Part shown: one piece after another, positions 21,901 through 25,323 of the stretch
Layout of the letters: every line of letters begins with the position of its first letter
Numbering within the stretch: the first letter of the stretch is position 1
Assembly (NCBI RefSeq): GCF_002332425.1
Contig: NZ_NRGS01000019.1
Coordinates: forward strand, 1 to 64,000
Direction of reading: 5' to 3'
Length of the DNA stretch: 64,000 nt
From: Brachybacterium alimentarium
Lineage (GTDB): Bacteria; Actinomycetota; Actinomycetes; Actinomycetales; Dermabacteraceae
Program-made: the position numbers and the translations under genes
The notes under the pieces: model-generated
Database searches by the model: none
Told to the model about the DNA's origin: nothing
The model's input: only the letters and a program-made list of their open reading frames with translations

Positions 21901-22522
21901 TCTGCGGATCCGTCGAGCGCAGGCCGGCCGCCCGGTTGGTCATGTAGGCGGGCAAGCCGCCCATCGAGATCTCGGCGTTCACATAGGGGCCGGGGCGGGC
22001 GATGACGTAGAGCCCCTCCTCCGCCGCCATGGTCAGCAGCAGGTCCACGTCCTTGATCCCGCTGAAGTCGAACTCCCCGTCGGGCGCGGACTGGTGCAGC
22101 CCCCAGAAGAAGTAGAAGGAGACCGCCGTGAAGCCGGCCGCCTTGAGGATCTGCAGCAGGTCACGCCACTGCGCCGGGGCCGGCACTCGCCAGGGATGGA
22201 TCTCGCCGGAGTAGAGGAGCAGGCGCTCGTCGTCCACCAGGAAGGAGTGCTCGTCCCAGGTGACCGTGTGCGCCCGCCCGTCGTTGCCGGGGAAGCGCGA
22301 GGTGCCGCGCAGAAGATCGGCGGTGGAGGCCCTCGCGTCGACCGCGGAGGGCACGCTCGGGGCGGCCGGCCCGCTCGGGGTGGACGGGGCGAGGGGCGCG
22401 GGCCCGGCCGCGAGGGCCGGACCCGCTGCGGTGCCGGCCACCGCGGCACCCGAGGCGCAGGCCCCCAGTCGCAGGAACCCCTTCCGGCTCAGAGCGGGCA
22501 GGGTCGGGCGCACTGGGGACAT
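18935..22522 (-). CDS. Secreted GH35 beta-galactosidase, multidomain
   Basis: 1195 residues. The N-terminus (LSRKGFLRLGACASG then a long Ala-rich stretch to AAG near 40) is a Tat-like signal with Arg-Lys in place of Arg-Arg. The GH35 barrel covers about 85-400: GEIHPWRVPAPAQW, the acid/base Glu in QVENEL (E243) and the nucleophile Glu in FITESQGG (E331). Then follow a beta-rich middle region and C-terminal jelly-roll domains typical of large family members. It should remove terminal beta-galactose from glycans outside the cell. The ATG at 22522 has a GAGGAG ribosome site. A LacI-type operator candidate lies about 50 bp upstream, so expression is probably sugar-controlled. The gene is transcribed alone. 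Confidence 0.92.
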   Translation of the reverse strand: MSPVRPTLPALSRKGFLRLGACASGAAVAGTAAGPALAAGPAPLAPSTPSGPAAPSVPSAVDARASTADLLRGTSRFPGNDGRAHTVTWDEHSFLVDDERLLLYSGEIHPWRVPAPAQWRDLLQILKAAGFTAVSFYFFWGLHQSAPDGEFDFSGIKDVDLLLTMAAEEGLYVIARPGPYVNAEISMGGLPAYMTNRAAGLRSTDPQNLADSCAWLSAINEIITAHQVTDGGGSVLMYQVENELISEDAERSAFLRALSDHVRSTGITVPLFHNDYGMGGRFADTEKHGTDFYAYDHYPLGFNAGGDRARIGESEEGYRQISPDTPQFITESQGGAFTPWGAAFDSHQAYEFTDPAFTRQWGVRNLAGGVTAFNYYMAFGGTNLGYTGSPSSGFTSYDYGAAITEDRELTEKLAVQKELGYLQQAVGQIASMTPVAPQPVPELDGGAIQAYQRLSTDDLTAATEGGAPRLLAFRLADSNDETDTRFATALVLGDPDDAGEDGPTADDRDPAITYEGDWTEVEDGTASGGTLMRTETAGATASWTFTGTAVDVITATGTDHGRARVLVDGTEHGTFTSHVDTEQNKPAQQISYQVQDLTEGEHTLVLEALGEPADGGEGTVVTLDALDLPGTSGDEDVEIPDGVVGWPRVPQQEDAFLHLHGRDALTLVADMVVGEHGLLYSTAAPFGPTLPRRGGHLQHLIGHAGDPAEIVLHYADEPQVDAPDGVETVWDGETGQLRLNLTPAAEPIQVEITGSPVTSEGTGAPSLLALRLLSRDAAATTWFLGGRPADRMTATPGTADAHVVVEGAGLARTVAFSRADADLVIGSTEAAAVRIDAPDGIRRVRINGSSRSAKDGIVTWTLPEPSVPAVPDLAFQVADEAPEAADDFDDADWRVADSTEGSTEYQGPGRGGVVLDSNHYGFYEGSIWYRARFTAAAGREITLRGNGGTGQPAQGKAPAFLQVWADGTYVGAAPADGTDQNLALPDGVAVPGEDAVLSVLVHNLGQNLDWSDDGLSKQNRGLFDAVLPADGEITWRIQGAEGEDGLRTLYNVGGLHGERHGWHLPAHDDSAWEPTDTLTAESAGIRWYRASFTLDVADGVDTGWRLAVRSPRFEDGRSDACQAVLYVNGWNVGLYIGDIGPQSEFTIPSGLLEHQGMNTLAVWVAAKEAGAGPETIELVPVFARTGSIGIAPPLV

Positions 22523-22570
22523 GCGGGAACTCCTCGTCGAGCGGTCGGGACTCGGACGTTAGCAGACCGC

Positions 22571-22583
22571 TGAACGTTTTACA
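22571..22583 (-). promoter_or_regulatory. LacI-type operator at the GH35 promoter
   Basis: TGAACGTTTTACA (plus strand) is a near-palindrome centred on CG. Reading leftwards on the minus strand it overlaps the -35/spacer zone of a possible -10 box TAACGT, placing it where a repressor would block the GH35 promoter. Confidence 0.6.
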
Positions 22584-22597
22584 GGAGTCTCGGGCAG

Positions 22598-23095
22598 TCA
22601 GCCGGCCATGACGGTGCGGGCGAAGCTCTCGGAGCGCTCCCGCAGCCTCTGGATCCGCTGCTCCCGATGGAAGGCGAGCAGGTGCTCGTCCTCCGTCTGC
22701 GATTCGAACGCCGTCGGCGCCCGGCGCACGTTGCGCGAGCACCGGAAGTCGGCGCACAGCCAGGTCCCGACGGTGTTGCCCCGTCGGCCGCCGGGGCCGC
22801 CGAGCGGCGCGACGAACGATGCGGCGTGGAGGCCGTCGACGATGTCCTCGCACCAGGCGCACATCATCTTCCGCGCGGCGGTCTTGTCGGAACCGCGCAG
22901 CATGATGCTCACGGGCTGGTCGTCGACCTCGAGCACCACGTAGTGCAGCTGGGGCCGACGGGAGTCCTGCCAGCCGAAGCATTCCAGCTCGTCCCAGCGG
23001 ACGGCATCGAGCGACGGGATGGCGGCCCGCTTCGCGTCGCCCTTGCTGGCGTTGACGAAGGAGCTGCGGATCAGGTTTTCGGTCAGGGGAATCAT
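22598..23095 (-). CDS. FBP-domain (EF-G-binding, FusB-like) protein
   Basis: 165 residues. The N-terminal helical part (LIRSSFVNASKGDAKR) and the C-terminal four-cysteine treble-clef zinc finger, C-x2-C (MMCAWCEDI) and C-x4-C (WLCADFRCSRNVR), match the elongation-factor-G-binding FBP family. In FusB/FusC this fold binds EF-G and frees it from the ribosome, giving fusidic acid resistance; many actinobacterial members have no known phenotype. The ATG follows a GAGGA site. The roughly 180-nt leader upstream contains a short open frame and two strong hairpins, which is unusual and may mean ribosome-dependent control. Confidence 0.82.
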   Translation of the reverse strand: MIPLTENLIRSSFVNASKGDAKRAAIPSLDAVRWDELECFGWQDSRRPQLHYVVLEVDDQPVSIMLRGSDKTAARKMMCAWCEDIVDGLHAASFVAPLGGPGGRRGNTVGTWLCADFRCSRNVRRAPTAFESQTEDEHLLAFHREQRIQRLRERSESFARTVMAG

Positions 23096-23114
23096 GGGGG
23101 TGTCCTCACGACGG

Positions 23115-23157
23115 GCGCGCGGCAGCGTCCCGCATCCGGCGGGATCGCGCGGCGCGC
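23115..23157 (-). promoter_or_regulatory. Leader hairpin next to the FBP ribosome site
   Basis: TCCCGC (23128-23133) pairs with GCGGGA (23139-23144) around a 5-nt loop. A 7x7 internal loop separates this from an outer stem of GCGCGC (23115-23120 and 23152-23157). The structure ends about 10 nt before the GAGGA ribosome site of the FBP gene. Confidence 0.5.
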
Positions 23158-23181
23158 AGGGAGTTCAGGAAGAGTGCGTGA

Positions 23182-23200
23182 CGGCGTGCTGAGCACGCCG
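23182..23200 (-). promoter_or_regulatory. 19-bp perfect palindrome after the leader ORF
   Basis: CGGCGTGCT, one base, AGCACGCCG. It begins 2 nt after the stop codon of the short leader ORF and could fold as a tight RNA hairpin or bind a dimeric protein. Confidence 0.55.
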
Positions 23201-23202
23201 GG

Positions 23203-23256
23203 TCAGGCCGAGCAGGCCGCGTGGGCCGCCCCGCTTCCCGCAGGCGTCGTGCGCAT
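23203..23256 (-). CDS. Putative 17-residue leader peptide upstream of the FBP gene
   Basis: An ATG at 23256 with a very good ribosome site (GAAAGGGAG, 5 nt spacing) opens a frame encoding MRTTPAGSGAAHAACSA and a TGA stop. It lies between a predicted promoter and the two leader hairpins of the FBP gene. No homology is claimed; the case rests on the strong ribosome site and position. Chance occurrence cannot be excluded. Confidence 0.42.
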   Translation of the reverse strand: MRTTPAGSGAAHAACSA

Positions 23257-23285
23257 GCTGTCTCCCTTTCGTCGTGGACGCGGCA

Positions 23286-23314
23286 ACGCTACGCCCGCAC
23301 GGGAACCTCGACAA
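23286..23314 (-). promoter_or_regulatory. Predicted promoter of the FBP leader
   Basis: On the minus strand TTGTCG (23314-23309), a 17-bp spacer and TAGCGT (23291-23286). Transcription would begin near 23279, giving a leader of about 180 nt. Confidence 0.5.
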
Positions 23315-23330
23315 GGGGATTCCCGTGCGG
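23295..23330. promoter_or_regulatory. 36-bp inverted repeat, 11-bp perfect arms
   Basis: CCGCACGGGAA and TTCCCGTGCGG flank a 14-nt loop. It starts 22 bp after the aldo/keto reductase stop codon and also covers the -35 and spacer of the predicted FBP promoter. It could be the terminator of the upstream operon, an operator, or both. Confidence 0.55.
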
Positions 23331-23352
23331 CGTGGCCCGCGAGACACCGGGA

Positions 23353-24237
23353 TCAGGCGATGATCTGGTTCAGCTGCTCGAGATCCTCGGCGCTCAGCTC
23401 GAGGGTCATCGCGCGGGCGGAGTCGCTGATCGACTCGGGACGGCTCGCGCCGGGGATCGGGACGACGTGCTCTCCCAGCGAGAGCTCCCAGGCCAGGACC
23501 ACCTGCTGCGGGCTCACACCGTGGGACTCGGCGATGCGCTGGATCTGCGGGAACCTCTCCCCCACCGCGCTCGCGCCGCCACCGGTGCCGCCCAGCGGGG
23601 ACCACGGCACGAATGCGATGCCGTGCTCGCCGCAGTGCTCGAGCTCGCGGCGGCTGGTGTGGAAGAAGGTGGGTGAGAACTCGTTCTGCACGGCGGCCAG
23701 GCCCCCGTCGCCGAGCACCTCGAGGGCCACGTCGATCTCCTCGACGTTCGCGTTGGAGATGCCGATCTCGCGGATCAGCCCCTCCTCCTTCAGCGCGGCG
23801 AGCGCCTCGACGCCCTCGGCGTAGCGGATGCTGCGATCCGGGCGGTGCCAGTAATAGAGGTCCACCGAGTCGATCTCGAGGGCGGCGAGCGACTTCTCGA
23901 GCGCGGAGCGGAGATAGGAGGCGGAGCCGTCGCGGCCGCCGCCCTCGGCCGAGCGGGTGATGCCGCCCTTGGTCGCGAGGGTGACGGAGGAGCGATCCCC
24001 GCCCCAGCTGCGCAGCGCCTCGGCCACGAGCTCCTCGTTGTGGCCCATCGTGTCCCAGCTCGGGGCATAGATGTCAGCGGTGTCGAGGAGGGTCACGCCG
24101 GCGTCGAGCGCGGCATGGATCGTGGCCGTCGCACGATCGGCCAGGGCGGGCTCGCCGCGCCCCATGGACAGGGGCATGGCGCCGAGGCCCAGGGCGGAGA
24201 CGGACAGGGAGCCGATACGGCGGGTGGGTGCAGTCAT
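23353..24237 (-). CDS. Aldo/keto reductase
   Basis: 294 residues, a typical (beta/alpha)8 aldo/keto reductase. The catalytic tetrad is recognisable: Asp and Tyr in LLDTADIYAP, Lys in TLATKGG and His in LYYWHRPD. It uses NADPH to reduce aldehydes or ketones, or the reverse on sugars. It is last in the minus-strand series GH172, fucose-isomerase-like enzyme, LacI and this gene, only 9 bp after the regulator. It could therefore act on the same sugar, for example as an L-fucose or galactose dehydrogenase. It also has its own close -10 box (TAGGCT, 6 nt before the ATG) and no ribosome site. Confidence 0.87.
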   Translation of the reverse strand: MTAPTRRIGSLSVSALGLGAMPLSMGRGEPALADRATATIHAALDAGVTLLDTADIYAPSWDTMGHNEELVAEALRSWGGDRSSVTLATKGGITRSAEGGGRDGSASYLRSALEKSLAALEIDSVDLYYWHRPDRSIRYAEGVEALAALKEEGLIREIGISNANVEEIDVALEVLGDGGLAAVQNEFSPTFFHTSRRELEHCGEHGIAFVPWSPLGGTGGGASAVGERFPQIQRIAESHGVSPQQVVLAWELSLGEHVVPIPGASRPESISDSARAMTLELSAEDLEQLNQIIA

Positions 24238-24243
24238 GCCCTC

Positions 24244-24249
24244 AGCCTA
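24244..24249 (-). promoter_or_regulatory. Leaderless -10 box of the aldo/keto reductase gene
   Basis: On the minus strand TAGGCT ends 6 nt before the ATG. It overlaps the stop codon of the lacI-type gene, so the reductase may also be made from its own leaderless transcript. Confidence 0.45.
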
Positions 24250-25323
24250 GGACGATGCGTGGCCTGCGTCACGAGGCGTCCAGGAGCCGTCGGTCCGCGG
24301 CCGCCGCCCACGCTGCGTGGATTCGCGCTCGATGATCTTCGAGCGCAGCAGCGTCGTGGAGGGCTCCTCGTCCGGATTGGCGATGCGCTGGCCGAGCATG
24401 CGTGCGGCGGCGCGGCTGGTGGCGCGCACCGGCTGATGGACGACGGAGACCGACGGGGTCACCAGACGGGTCCACAGGTCGTCGTCGGTCGCGAGCAGGG
24501 CCGGAGCGTCGTCCCGGCCGCGCATCGCCTCGAACGCCCCGGCGGACATCCGGTTGTTCGTGACATAGACGCAGTCGGCGTCGCCCTCCGCGAGGATCTG
24601 CGCCATCAGCGCCGCGCCGGACTCCAGCTGCAGGTCACCGCGCAGGACGACCGTCTCGTCGAGCTCGATCCCCGCCTCCCGCCAGGCGGCGAGATATCCA
24701 CTGACGCGATCCTCGGTGGTGCGCAGCTGGGAGGGCCCGCCGATCACGGCCGGCCGGCGGTAGCCGCGCTCGTGGAGGTGGCGGGCGGCCTGGCGGCCGG
24801 CGTCGAGGTTGTCGGTGGCGACCAGGTCGGTGTTCGCCCCCTCGATCCAGCGGTCCACCAGCACCACCGGGATCCCCGCCTCGGTGAGCGGGGAGAGATC
24901 CGTGAGGGTGCTGTGCACCGGGACGAGCAGCACCCCGGAGACGTGACGGCCCACCAGCTGCGCGAAGCATTCCCGCTCGATCTCGAGATCGTCCTCGGTG
25001 TGTGCGATCGTCACCGACTGGTGATCGCCGCGCGCGATCCGTTCGACCTCGCTGATGATCTGCGTGAAGTACGGGTTCGCCGCGTCGGGCGCGACCACCG
25101 CGATCTGGGAGGTGCCGCCGCGCCGCAGCGAGCGCCCCATGGCGTTGGGCACGTAGCCCGTCGACCGCACGGCGGCACGCACCCGACGGGAGAGCTCCTT
25201 GTCGACGCTCGCGGCGCCGTTGATCACCCGGGAGACCGTCGCCGAGGAGACCCCGGCCGTCCGGGCGACATCCAGGATCGTGGGTCTCGGCGACACCATG
25301 GGGCTCCTCTTCACGCTCGGCAC
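24247..25323 (-). CDS. LacI-family transcriptional regulator (glycan locus)
   Basis: 358 residues. The N-terminal helix-turn-helix (TILDVARTAGVSSATVSRVI) and hinge helix are followed by a periplasmic-binding-protein-like sensor domain (about 70-335). The gene lies 11 bp after the fucose-isomerase-like gene and before the reductase, so it is encoded inside the operon it probably controls. CG-centred operators with GTTTAC-type half sites flank both sides of this locus and recur elsewhere in the window. It is the first candidate to read them; a second LacI protein is encoded at 57399. The start could also be the internal ATG nine codons later. Confidence 0.9.
   Translation of the reverse strand: MPSVKRSPMVSPRPTILDVARTAGVSSATVSRVINGAASVDKELSRRVRAAVRSTGYVPNAMGRSLRRGGTSQIAVVAPDAANPYFTQIISEVERIARGDHQSVTIAHTEDDLEIERECFAQLVGRHVSGVLLVPVHSTLTDLSPLTEAGIPVVLVDRWIEGANTDLVATDNLDAGRQAARHLHERGYRRPAVIGGPSQLRTTEDRVSGYLAAWREAGIELDETVVLRGDLQLESGAALMAQILAEGDADCVYVTNNRMSAGAFEAMRGRDDAPALLATDDDLWTRLVTPSVSVVHQPVRATSRAAARMLGQRIANPDEEPSTTLLRSKIIERESTQRGRRPRTDGSWTPRDAGHASS

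Follow-up and report, generated by a model that had tools for sequence, protein, structure and literature searches.

A Conserved Short Frame with an Internal Hairpin as a Probable Regulatory Leader of an Actinobacterial FusB-Family Gene

Introduction

The staphylococcal fusB gene carried on pUB101 is described, in the available portions of three papers, as being controlled by leader-based translational attenuation, in which fusidic acid stalls ribosomes on the fusB leader, the stalled ribosomes alter the structure of the RNA, and the fusB ribosome site becomes available (PMC12008383, PMC12493156, PMC3352095). The arrangement appears as aj1-leader peptide-fusB in the accessible text of a further paper (PMC12561750), and a review from 2025 states, in the part available, that the regulation of FusB homologs remains unknown (PMC12493156). 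The sequence-only reading from which the present study started knew of no description of such a leader for this family, for which the staphylococcal one has been published. The leader analyzed herein resembles that of staphylococcal fusB in that a short frame precedes a FusB-family gene; it differs in being actinobacterial and chromosomal and in carrying a hairpin inside the frame, as far as the two may be compared by description rather than by leader sequence.

The WhiB7/WblC leaders of actinobacteria also bear an upstream open reading frame (uORF) and belong to a gene of the response to ribosome inhibitors, and are thus alike to the present leader within the same phylum. In contrast to this likeness, the WhiB7-like gene of the genome under study (G000) has a different uORF-like frame, and the covariance model R1 (see below) found only the fbp leader in that genome. 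In Escherichia coli, the uORF toiL of topAI has been proposed to act as a sensor of several ribosome inhibitors that exposes a ribosome site, and Rho termination is described as following from repression (PMC12121999). While toiL is similar as a proposed sensor of ribosome inhibitors, it belongs to another gene in another organism.

No description of an actinobacterial fbp leader was found in the literature searched, which was mostly free of subscription papers. Leader control of a FusB-family gene is already known, and the locus described herein most likely represents a new, widespread actinobacterial variant that looks unrelated to it.

Results

In the window, i.e., the whole stretch of 64,000 nucleotides analyzed (contig NZ_NRGS01000019.1 of Brachybacterium alimentarium), the leader occupies the minus-strand interval that separates an aldo/keto reductase gene (23353-24237) from the gene for a 165-aa protein (Table 1). 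Every part named in the sequence-only reading is located on this strand, and its promoter-like pair, 17-codon frame, palindrome 2 nt past the stop, and second hairpin are all present in the sequence and the predicted fold. When folded from the predicted transcription start, the leader reached -97 kcal/mol (z -3.02), and only 1 of 200 dinucleotide shuffles was as good. Generic sigma-70 and terminator scans of 22400-24400 returned no match and did not flag the promoter-like pair, while Rfam gave no matches in the window and one in the leader with an E-value of 7.5, far below the gathering score of that family.

Table 1. Features of the fbp leader and its gene in the window
Feature	Position	Strand	Basis
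WblC/WhiB7-like box AATC, 3 nt 5' of the -35 element	23318..23321	-	relaxed WblC motif
Promoter-like pair: -35 TTGTCG (23314-23309) and -10 TAGCGT (23291-23286), 17-nt spacer	23286..23314	-	sequence
Predicted transcription start	~23279	-	inference
5' arm GUCCACGACG, potential pairing with the fbp ribosome-site region	23270..23279	-	fold; mixed statistical support
uORF ribosome site AGGGAG, potential pairing with CUCCCU (23163-23158)	23262..23267	-	sequence, predicted fold
17-codon uORF MRTTPAGSGAAHAACSA, ATG 23256 to TGA 23203	23203..23256	-	23/28 genus loci; motif at 81/184 merged loci
Core hairpin within the uORF, CGGG-GC-GGCC-CACGC-GGCC-UG-CUCG	23209..23233	-	GGCC arms in 79/79, pair counts
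Hairpin I, odd 19-nt palindrome CGGCGTGCTCAGCACGCCG, 2 nt past the uORF stop	23182..23200	-	sequence, genus leaders
CUCCCU, partner of the uORF ribosome site	23158..23163	-	predicted fold
Hairpin II, branched, about 23157-23115, 7 nt before the fbp ribosome site	23115..23157	-	fold, genus leaders
fbp ribosome-site region CGUCGUGAGGAC, GAGGA at 23107-23103	23102..23113	-	sequence, fold
fbp, 165-aa FusB-family protein with an FBP_C domain, ATG 23095	22598..23095	-	PF16571, FusC profile match, Foldseek

The 165-aa product was assigned to Pfam FBP_C (PF16571, E 2.9e-48). A profile of 17 relatives matched FusC (2yb5, E 4.1e-6) with four cysteines aligned, and these residues (C79, C82, C114, and C119) are invariant in the 17 relatives. 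The AlphaFold2 model of FBP (mean pLDDT 92.3, pTM 0.87) was searched using Foldseek, in which ranks 1-5 were FusC and FusB entries (E 4.7e-5 to 5.5e-3). The FusB-like identity proposed from the sequence was therefore correct, and the downstream gene encodes a FusB-family protein with putative EF-G binding and release. The N-terminal four-helix bundle of the FusB family was absent, with the profile covering FusC residues 100-201 only and the model containing no such bundle; the window FBP appears to correspond to the C-terminal domain only of a FusB-family protein. FBP_C was detected in 27 of 47 genomes of the family, all from the genus to which the window belongs, and in none of nine genomes from five other genera, and its occurrence is, thus, patchy.

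Among 38 Brachybacterium genomes, 27 carry fbp at a total of 28 loci, one of which is partial. The short frame and its ribosome site were recognizable at 23 of these 28 loci, and its conservation among relatives, which had been suggested as a check, held both here and across genera. The length was 17 codons at 22 of the 23 loci; the stop was lost in L011, extending the frame to 22 codons, and was TAG in L008. The five loci without a recognized uORF were L015, L025, L026, and L027, the FBPs of which are 40-61% identical to the window FBP, and L017, in which a deletion removed the promoter and most of the uORF. In the natural deletion seen in L017 and L119 (Brachybacterium epidermidis), fbp sits close behind the aldo/keto reductase gene. 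Genome G015 has two fbp loci (L021 and L028), one partial at a contig end and both with the leader; this genome is listed as 81% complete with 5% contamination and may be a mixture.

A scan of the genus and family using a core pattern with one mismatch was dropped because every genome matched, and this overly permissive pattern was replaced by R1, a covariance model of the 75-nt uORF stretch that includes no fbp sequence. Within the genus, R1 matched 22 of the 27 fbp-carrying genomes and none of the 11 in which fbp is absent. One weak match (G002:C1:2497305, E 3e-4) was located away from fbp and was attributed to chance, with neither fbp nor such a uORF being recognized in L078.

Over 297 genomes of the order, R1 yielded seven matches outside the genus (E 1.3e-4 to 9.4e-4), each of which was upstream of fbp and separated by 118-250 nt from a same-strand FBP_C match. 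Among named fbp loci, which were the best 80 of at least 576, the strict uORF pattern was found at 52, compared with none of the 80 reverse-strand windows and a single one of 387 other tiles, while inspection of the remaining named loci by eye revealed 14 variants, two type B frames, and 12 loci without a uORF. The strict set spans 18 named genera and three orders, and includes Blastococcus (Geodermatophilales) and Kineococcus (Kineosporiales).

We then assembled a non-exhaustive set of 208 fbp loci, comprising 28 from the genus, the best 30 of the order, the 80 named loci, a further 40 chosen from the order, and the best 30 of the class, which was reduced to 201 by an exact-match filter and to 184 by merging repeats of the same organism. 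A codon-blind motif of the uORF peptide was present at 81 of the 184 merged loci, in one reverse window, and in none of 726 tiles, and a relaxed hairpin pattern at 99 of the 184, with two on the reverse strand and 6 of 726 tiles. Unmerged counts for the 201 loci were 114 for the relaxed hairpin, for which a wider loop range was used, and 12 for type B; this wider pattern also appeared on the reverse strand in 19 windows and in 13 of 779 tiles. In 105 leaders that have both a core and a ribosome site, counted with repeats unmerged, the start codon was in frame with the core in 104, at distances of 2, 5, 7, 8, 10, 11, 12, or 15 codons, against a chance expectation of one third (p 1.7e-48 if the leaders were independent, which they are not), and an in-frame reading of the exception, L194, exists by eye. 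The 89 distinct uORFs start with ATG (83) or GTG (6) and stop with TGA (85) or TAG (4). Since it is conserved across genera beyond chance, the 17-codon frame ahead of fbp is no accident.

Another kind of short frame, type B, was detected at 12 of the 184 merged loci, on no reverse strand, and in no tile. It is a leaderless uORF that starts a few nucleotides after the -10 box and contains E-V-[V/A/S/I]-G, with Leifsonia as a named example, and a type A uORF was found at none of these 12 loci. The type B loci, with their E-V-x-G core and strong hairpin, belong to other families (L112, L166, L191, L198, L206-L209, L212-L214, and L228). Seven of the type B loci have a five-nt loop; in all of these, seven of the eight hairpin pairs form, and the inner pair is swapped, being C-G in five and G-C in two. 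GAGGU before a GC-rich hairpin is common to types A, A', and B, and these types may share a common descent, judging from their sequences.

Regarding RNA structure, the sequence-only reading emphasized two hairpins downstream of the frame. The palindrome (hairpin I) proved to be partly conserved, with a perfect stem of at least 6 bp in 14 of 23 genus leaders; hairpin II formed such a stem in 12 of 23, and in 4 of 23 its region had fewer than 30 nt, which indicates that it is dispensable. The consistently conserved structure is instead a GGCC-N5-GGCC hairpin inside the uORF, which the sequence-only reading had missed. In 79 distinct uORFs picked by peptide alone, with codons disregarded and repeats of one organism merged, both arms were GGCC in 79 of 79. 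The core Ala codons were GCC at both positions in all 79, while fbp genes use GCC at 56% and GCG at 37%; the core Gly codon was GGG in 46 of 46 (17% in fbp genes), and the core Val codon was GTG in 45 of 45 (36%). Compared with recoded versions that encode the same peptide, the core was also more stable (mean z -1.74), and 61 of the 79 ranked in the best tenth. The invariance of the arms in frames selected by peptide shows that the RNA and the reading frame are both under selection.

In leaders selected by the pattern, including those in alignment A3, the uniformity of the arms arises partly by construction because the pattern already contains GGCC arms; the conclusion of an RNA constraint held under peptide-only selection with merged repeats. 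In A3 (79 pattern-selected sequences, 63 distinct), the structure was 96.4% paired versus 24-68% for slid versions; four of its eight pairs never vary, one shows changes in both partners, and the outermost pair does not form in 16 of 63. Covariation alone is weak within the genus, since 64 of 500 shuffles reached the score of the genus alignment A1, which has a ninth inner pair. Independent support for the RNA constraint is provided by core loops of four nt in 8 of 105 leaders and by L091, L161, L185, and L187, in which the frame is off by one against the stem (e.g., MSAGSEVGRTGHLV) and GGCC/GGCC is retained.

The constraint on the RNA and a stem that is kept while loop length or frame changes may also be expected of a protein-binding site, perhaps for FBP itself, with the uORF being incidental, and a possible role for nucleic-acid binding by FusB in its own synthesis was raised in the available portion of an earlier study (PMC3352095). 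However, the in-frame starts in 104 of 105 leaders, placed 2 to 15 codons from the core, would not be expected if translation were incidental, and we regard this explanation as quite unlikely. The conserved motif AG[SC][GE][VA]AxxAC may be taken as a sign that the uORF encodes a small peptide acting in trans, whereas the length of the peptide varies from 14 to 37 aa and its second half differs in L091, L161, L185, and L187 with the stem being kept, which makes a trans-acting product very improbable. An attenuator responsive to cysteine would account for the Cys codon in the core of most uORFs; however, there is only one such codon, and it is TGC in 78 of 89 distinct uORFs and otherwise TTC (4), CAC (4), TCC (2), or TAC (1). 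This candidate was rejected as extremely improbable because the codon it requires is missing from the core in 11 of 89.

The published WblC motif consists of GAAAWY, a -35 element TKGMNN, and a -10 element TANNNT, in the available portion of the source (PMC7157823), the main text of which does not contain "FBP" or "fibronectin". In a relaxed form (AAWY, three nt, TKG, spacer, TANNNT), the box was present in the window and at 31 of the 184 merged fbp loci, with none on the reverse strand and none in 726 tiles; the first count was 34 of 201 loci and 0 of 779 tiles. Within the genus, 8 of the 28 loci carry it, and among the best 30 loci of the class the figure is 19. Neither type of uORF, A or B, was recognized at any of these 30 class-level loci, with L260 matching the relaxed hairpin pattern only. 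In several class-level families (L233-L262), the promoter that carries the WblC-like box is situated near the start of fbp.

The enrichment of this box, together with its occurrence at class-level loci in which no type A or B uORF was recognized, allows the proposal that the WblC/WhiB7-like promoter performs all of the regulation and that the leader is a passenger. This proposal has only a slim chance of being correct in view of the retention of the leader over 18 named genera and three orders, and of the 15 leaders of type A, among 104 counted with repeats unmerged, that carry both the box and the uORF. The window genome contains four WhiB genes, one of which ends in KRGRGRPRK, which we take to be the AT-hook of WhiB7. 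The WhiB7-like gene at G000:C5:520572-520724 (L266) is preceded by a uORF-like frame, MIIIRNLAGAGLRPVGAPSLLQRERGYAPAVPSLS, which has a GTG start and is unlike the fbp uORF.

In the predicted fold of the window leader, the 5' end GUCCACGACG pairs with CGUCGUGAGGAC and the uORF ribosome site pairs with CUCCCU, and both ribosome sites are closed together. For the uORF ribosome site and its downstream segment in the genus, a comparison of duplex energies between self and cross pairings gave p 0.17, while the longest Watson-Crick run gave p 0.0038, 0.0024, and 0.0002 for three site windows, and p 0.0056-0.0124 when G-U pairs were allowed, with three control windows at 0.80-0.99. Since the run-length measure was chosen after duplex energy, the result for this pairing is no more than suggestive. 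When masking by the 5' arm was assessed at the fbp ribosome site, wider windows gave p 0.53, 0.095, and 0.78 (controls 0.026-0.118) and narrower ones gave p 0.013, 0.046, 0.047, and 0.20. The predicted masking probability exceeded 0.5 in 7 of 23 genus leaders versus 10.9% with the arm shuffled, and averaged 0.18 in the 52 strict leaders, including nine from Brachybacterium, among the named loci (the best 80 of at least 576), and is, thus, not general. When a ribosome masking the uORF was simulated, predicted access to the fbp ribosome site was unchanged on average. The masking of this site by the 5' end of the transcript is weakly supported by these models.

Discussion

We consider it probable that the region is a regulatory mRNA leader that senses translation through its uORF and controls a FusB-family gene. 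Support for this is provided by the conservation of the leader, the kept frame and ribosome site, the RNA constraint, the coupling to fbp, and the promoter box, and a feature of attenuators of the fusB kind, i.e., a conserved frame and ribosome site ahead of the gene, is present. A role for the leader as a sensor is likely; we infer that the uORF is translated in the cell and acts as this sensor, that induction results from stalling, and that either the translation or the transcription of fbp is the output. The absence of a recognized uORF at 5 of 28 genus loci and 12 of 80 named loci, the non-universal hairpins I and II, and the unchanged mean access to the fbp ribosome site in the masking simulation count against this reading. 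A promoter with a WblC/WhiB7-like box would give rise to a leader of approximately 185 nt, on which ribosomes would translate the 17-codon uORF, and the 3' half of this frame, when free of ribosomes, would fold into the conserved hairpin. Whether a ribosome on the uORF passes, or is stalled and queued by an inhibitor, would then set the leader fold and turn fbp on or off. In Brachybacterium, one possible, weakly supported output would be that the 5' end of the transcript no longer pairs with the fbp ribosome site, which is thereby freed.

Such a leader would tie relatives of the EF-G-rescue proteins to the state of translation and, via the WblC/WhiB7-like box, link fbp to the antibiotic response of actinobacteria. 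The uORF start, the core hairpin, and the promoter box represent precise targets for studies on whether proteins of this kind serve in natural translation stress.

A bolder version, to which we assign a small chance, is that the uORF is a built-in test of EF-G, in which the in-frame hairpin demands strong, repeated translocation and a trapped or weak EF-G would lead to a halt at the hairpin, refolding, and the production of FBP, which is presumed to free EF-G, closing a feedback loop. The hairpin, not the peptide, would then be the sensor, and types A, A', and B would all go back to a single ancient leader.

The decision may also be made at the level of transcription, with Rho or a pausing polymerase terminating after the uORF unless a stalled ribosome prevents this. 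The stretch between the uORF and fbp contains C in excess of G, with (C-G)/(C+G) being 0.145 in 88 leaders versus 0.032 in 2367 tiles, and this mild excess of C over G leaves room for Rho; in addition, L094 has a terminator-like hairpin and a T run after its uORF. On the other hand, only 11% of leaders have an excess above the 95th percentile of tiles, and terminator-like sites are not enriched (3 of 104 leaders versus 19 of 1311 tiles), with none in the window. Transcriptional control of this type is possible, though somewhat doubtful. Single genomes have terminator-like hairpins with T-rich tails before fbp; counted from the fbp match or start, these are located at -142 in L094, -53 in L192, and -74 in L224.
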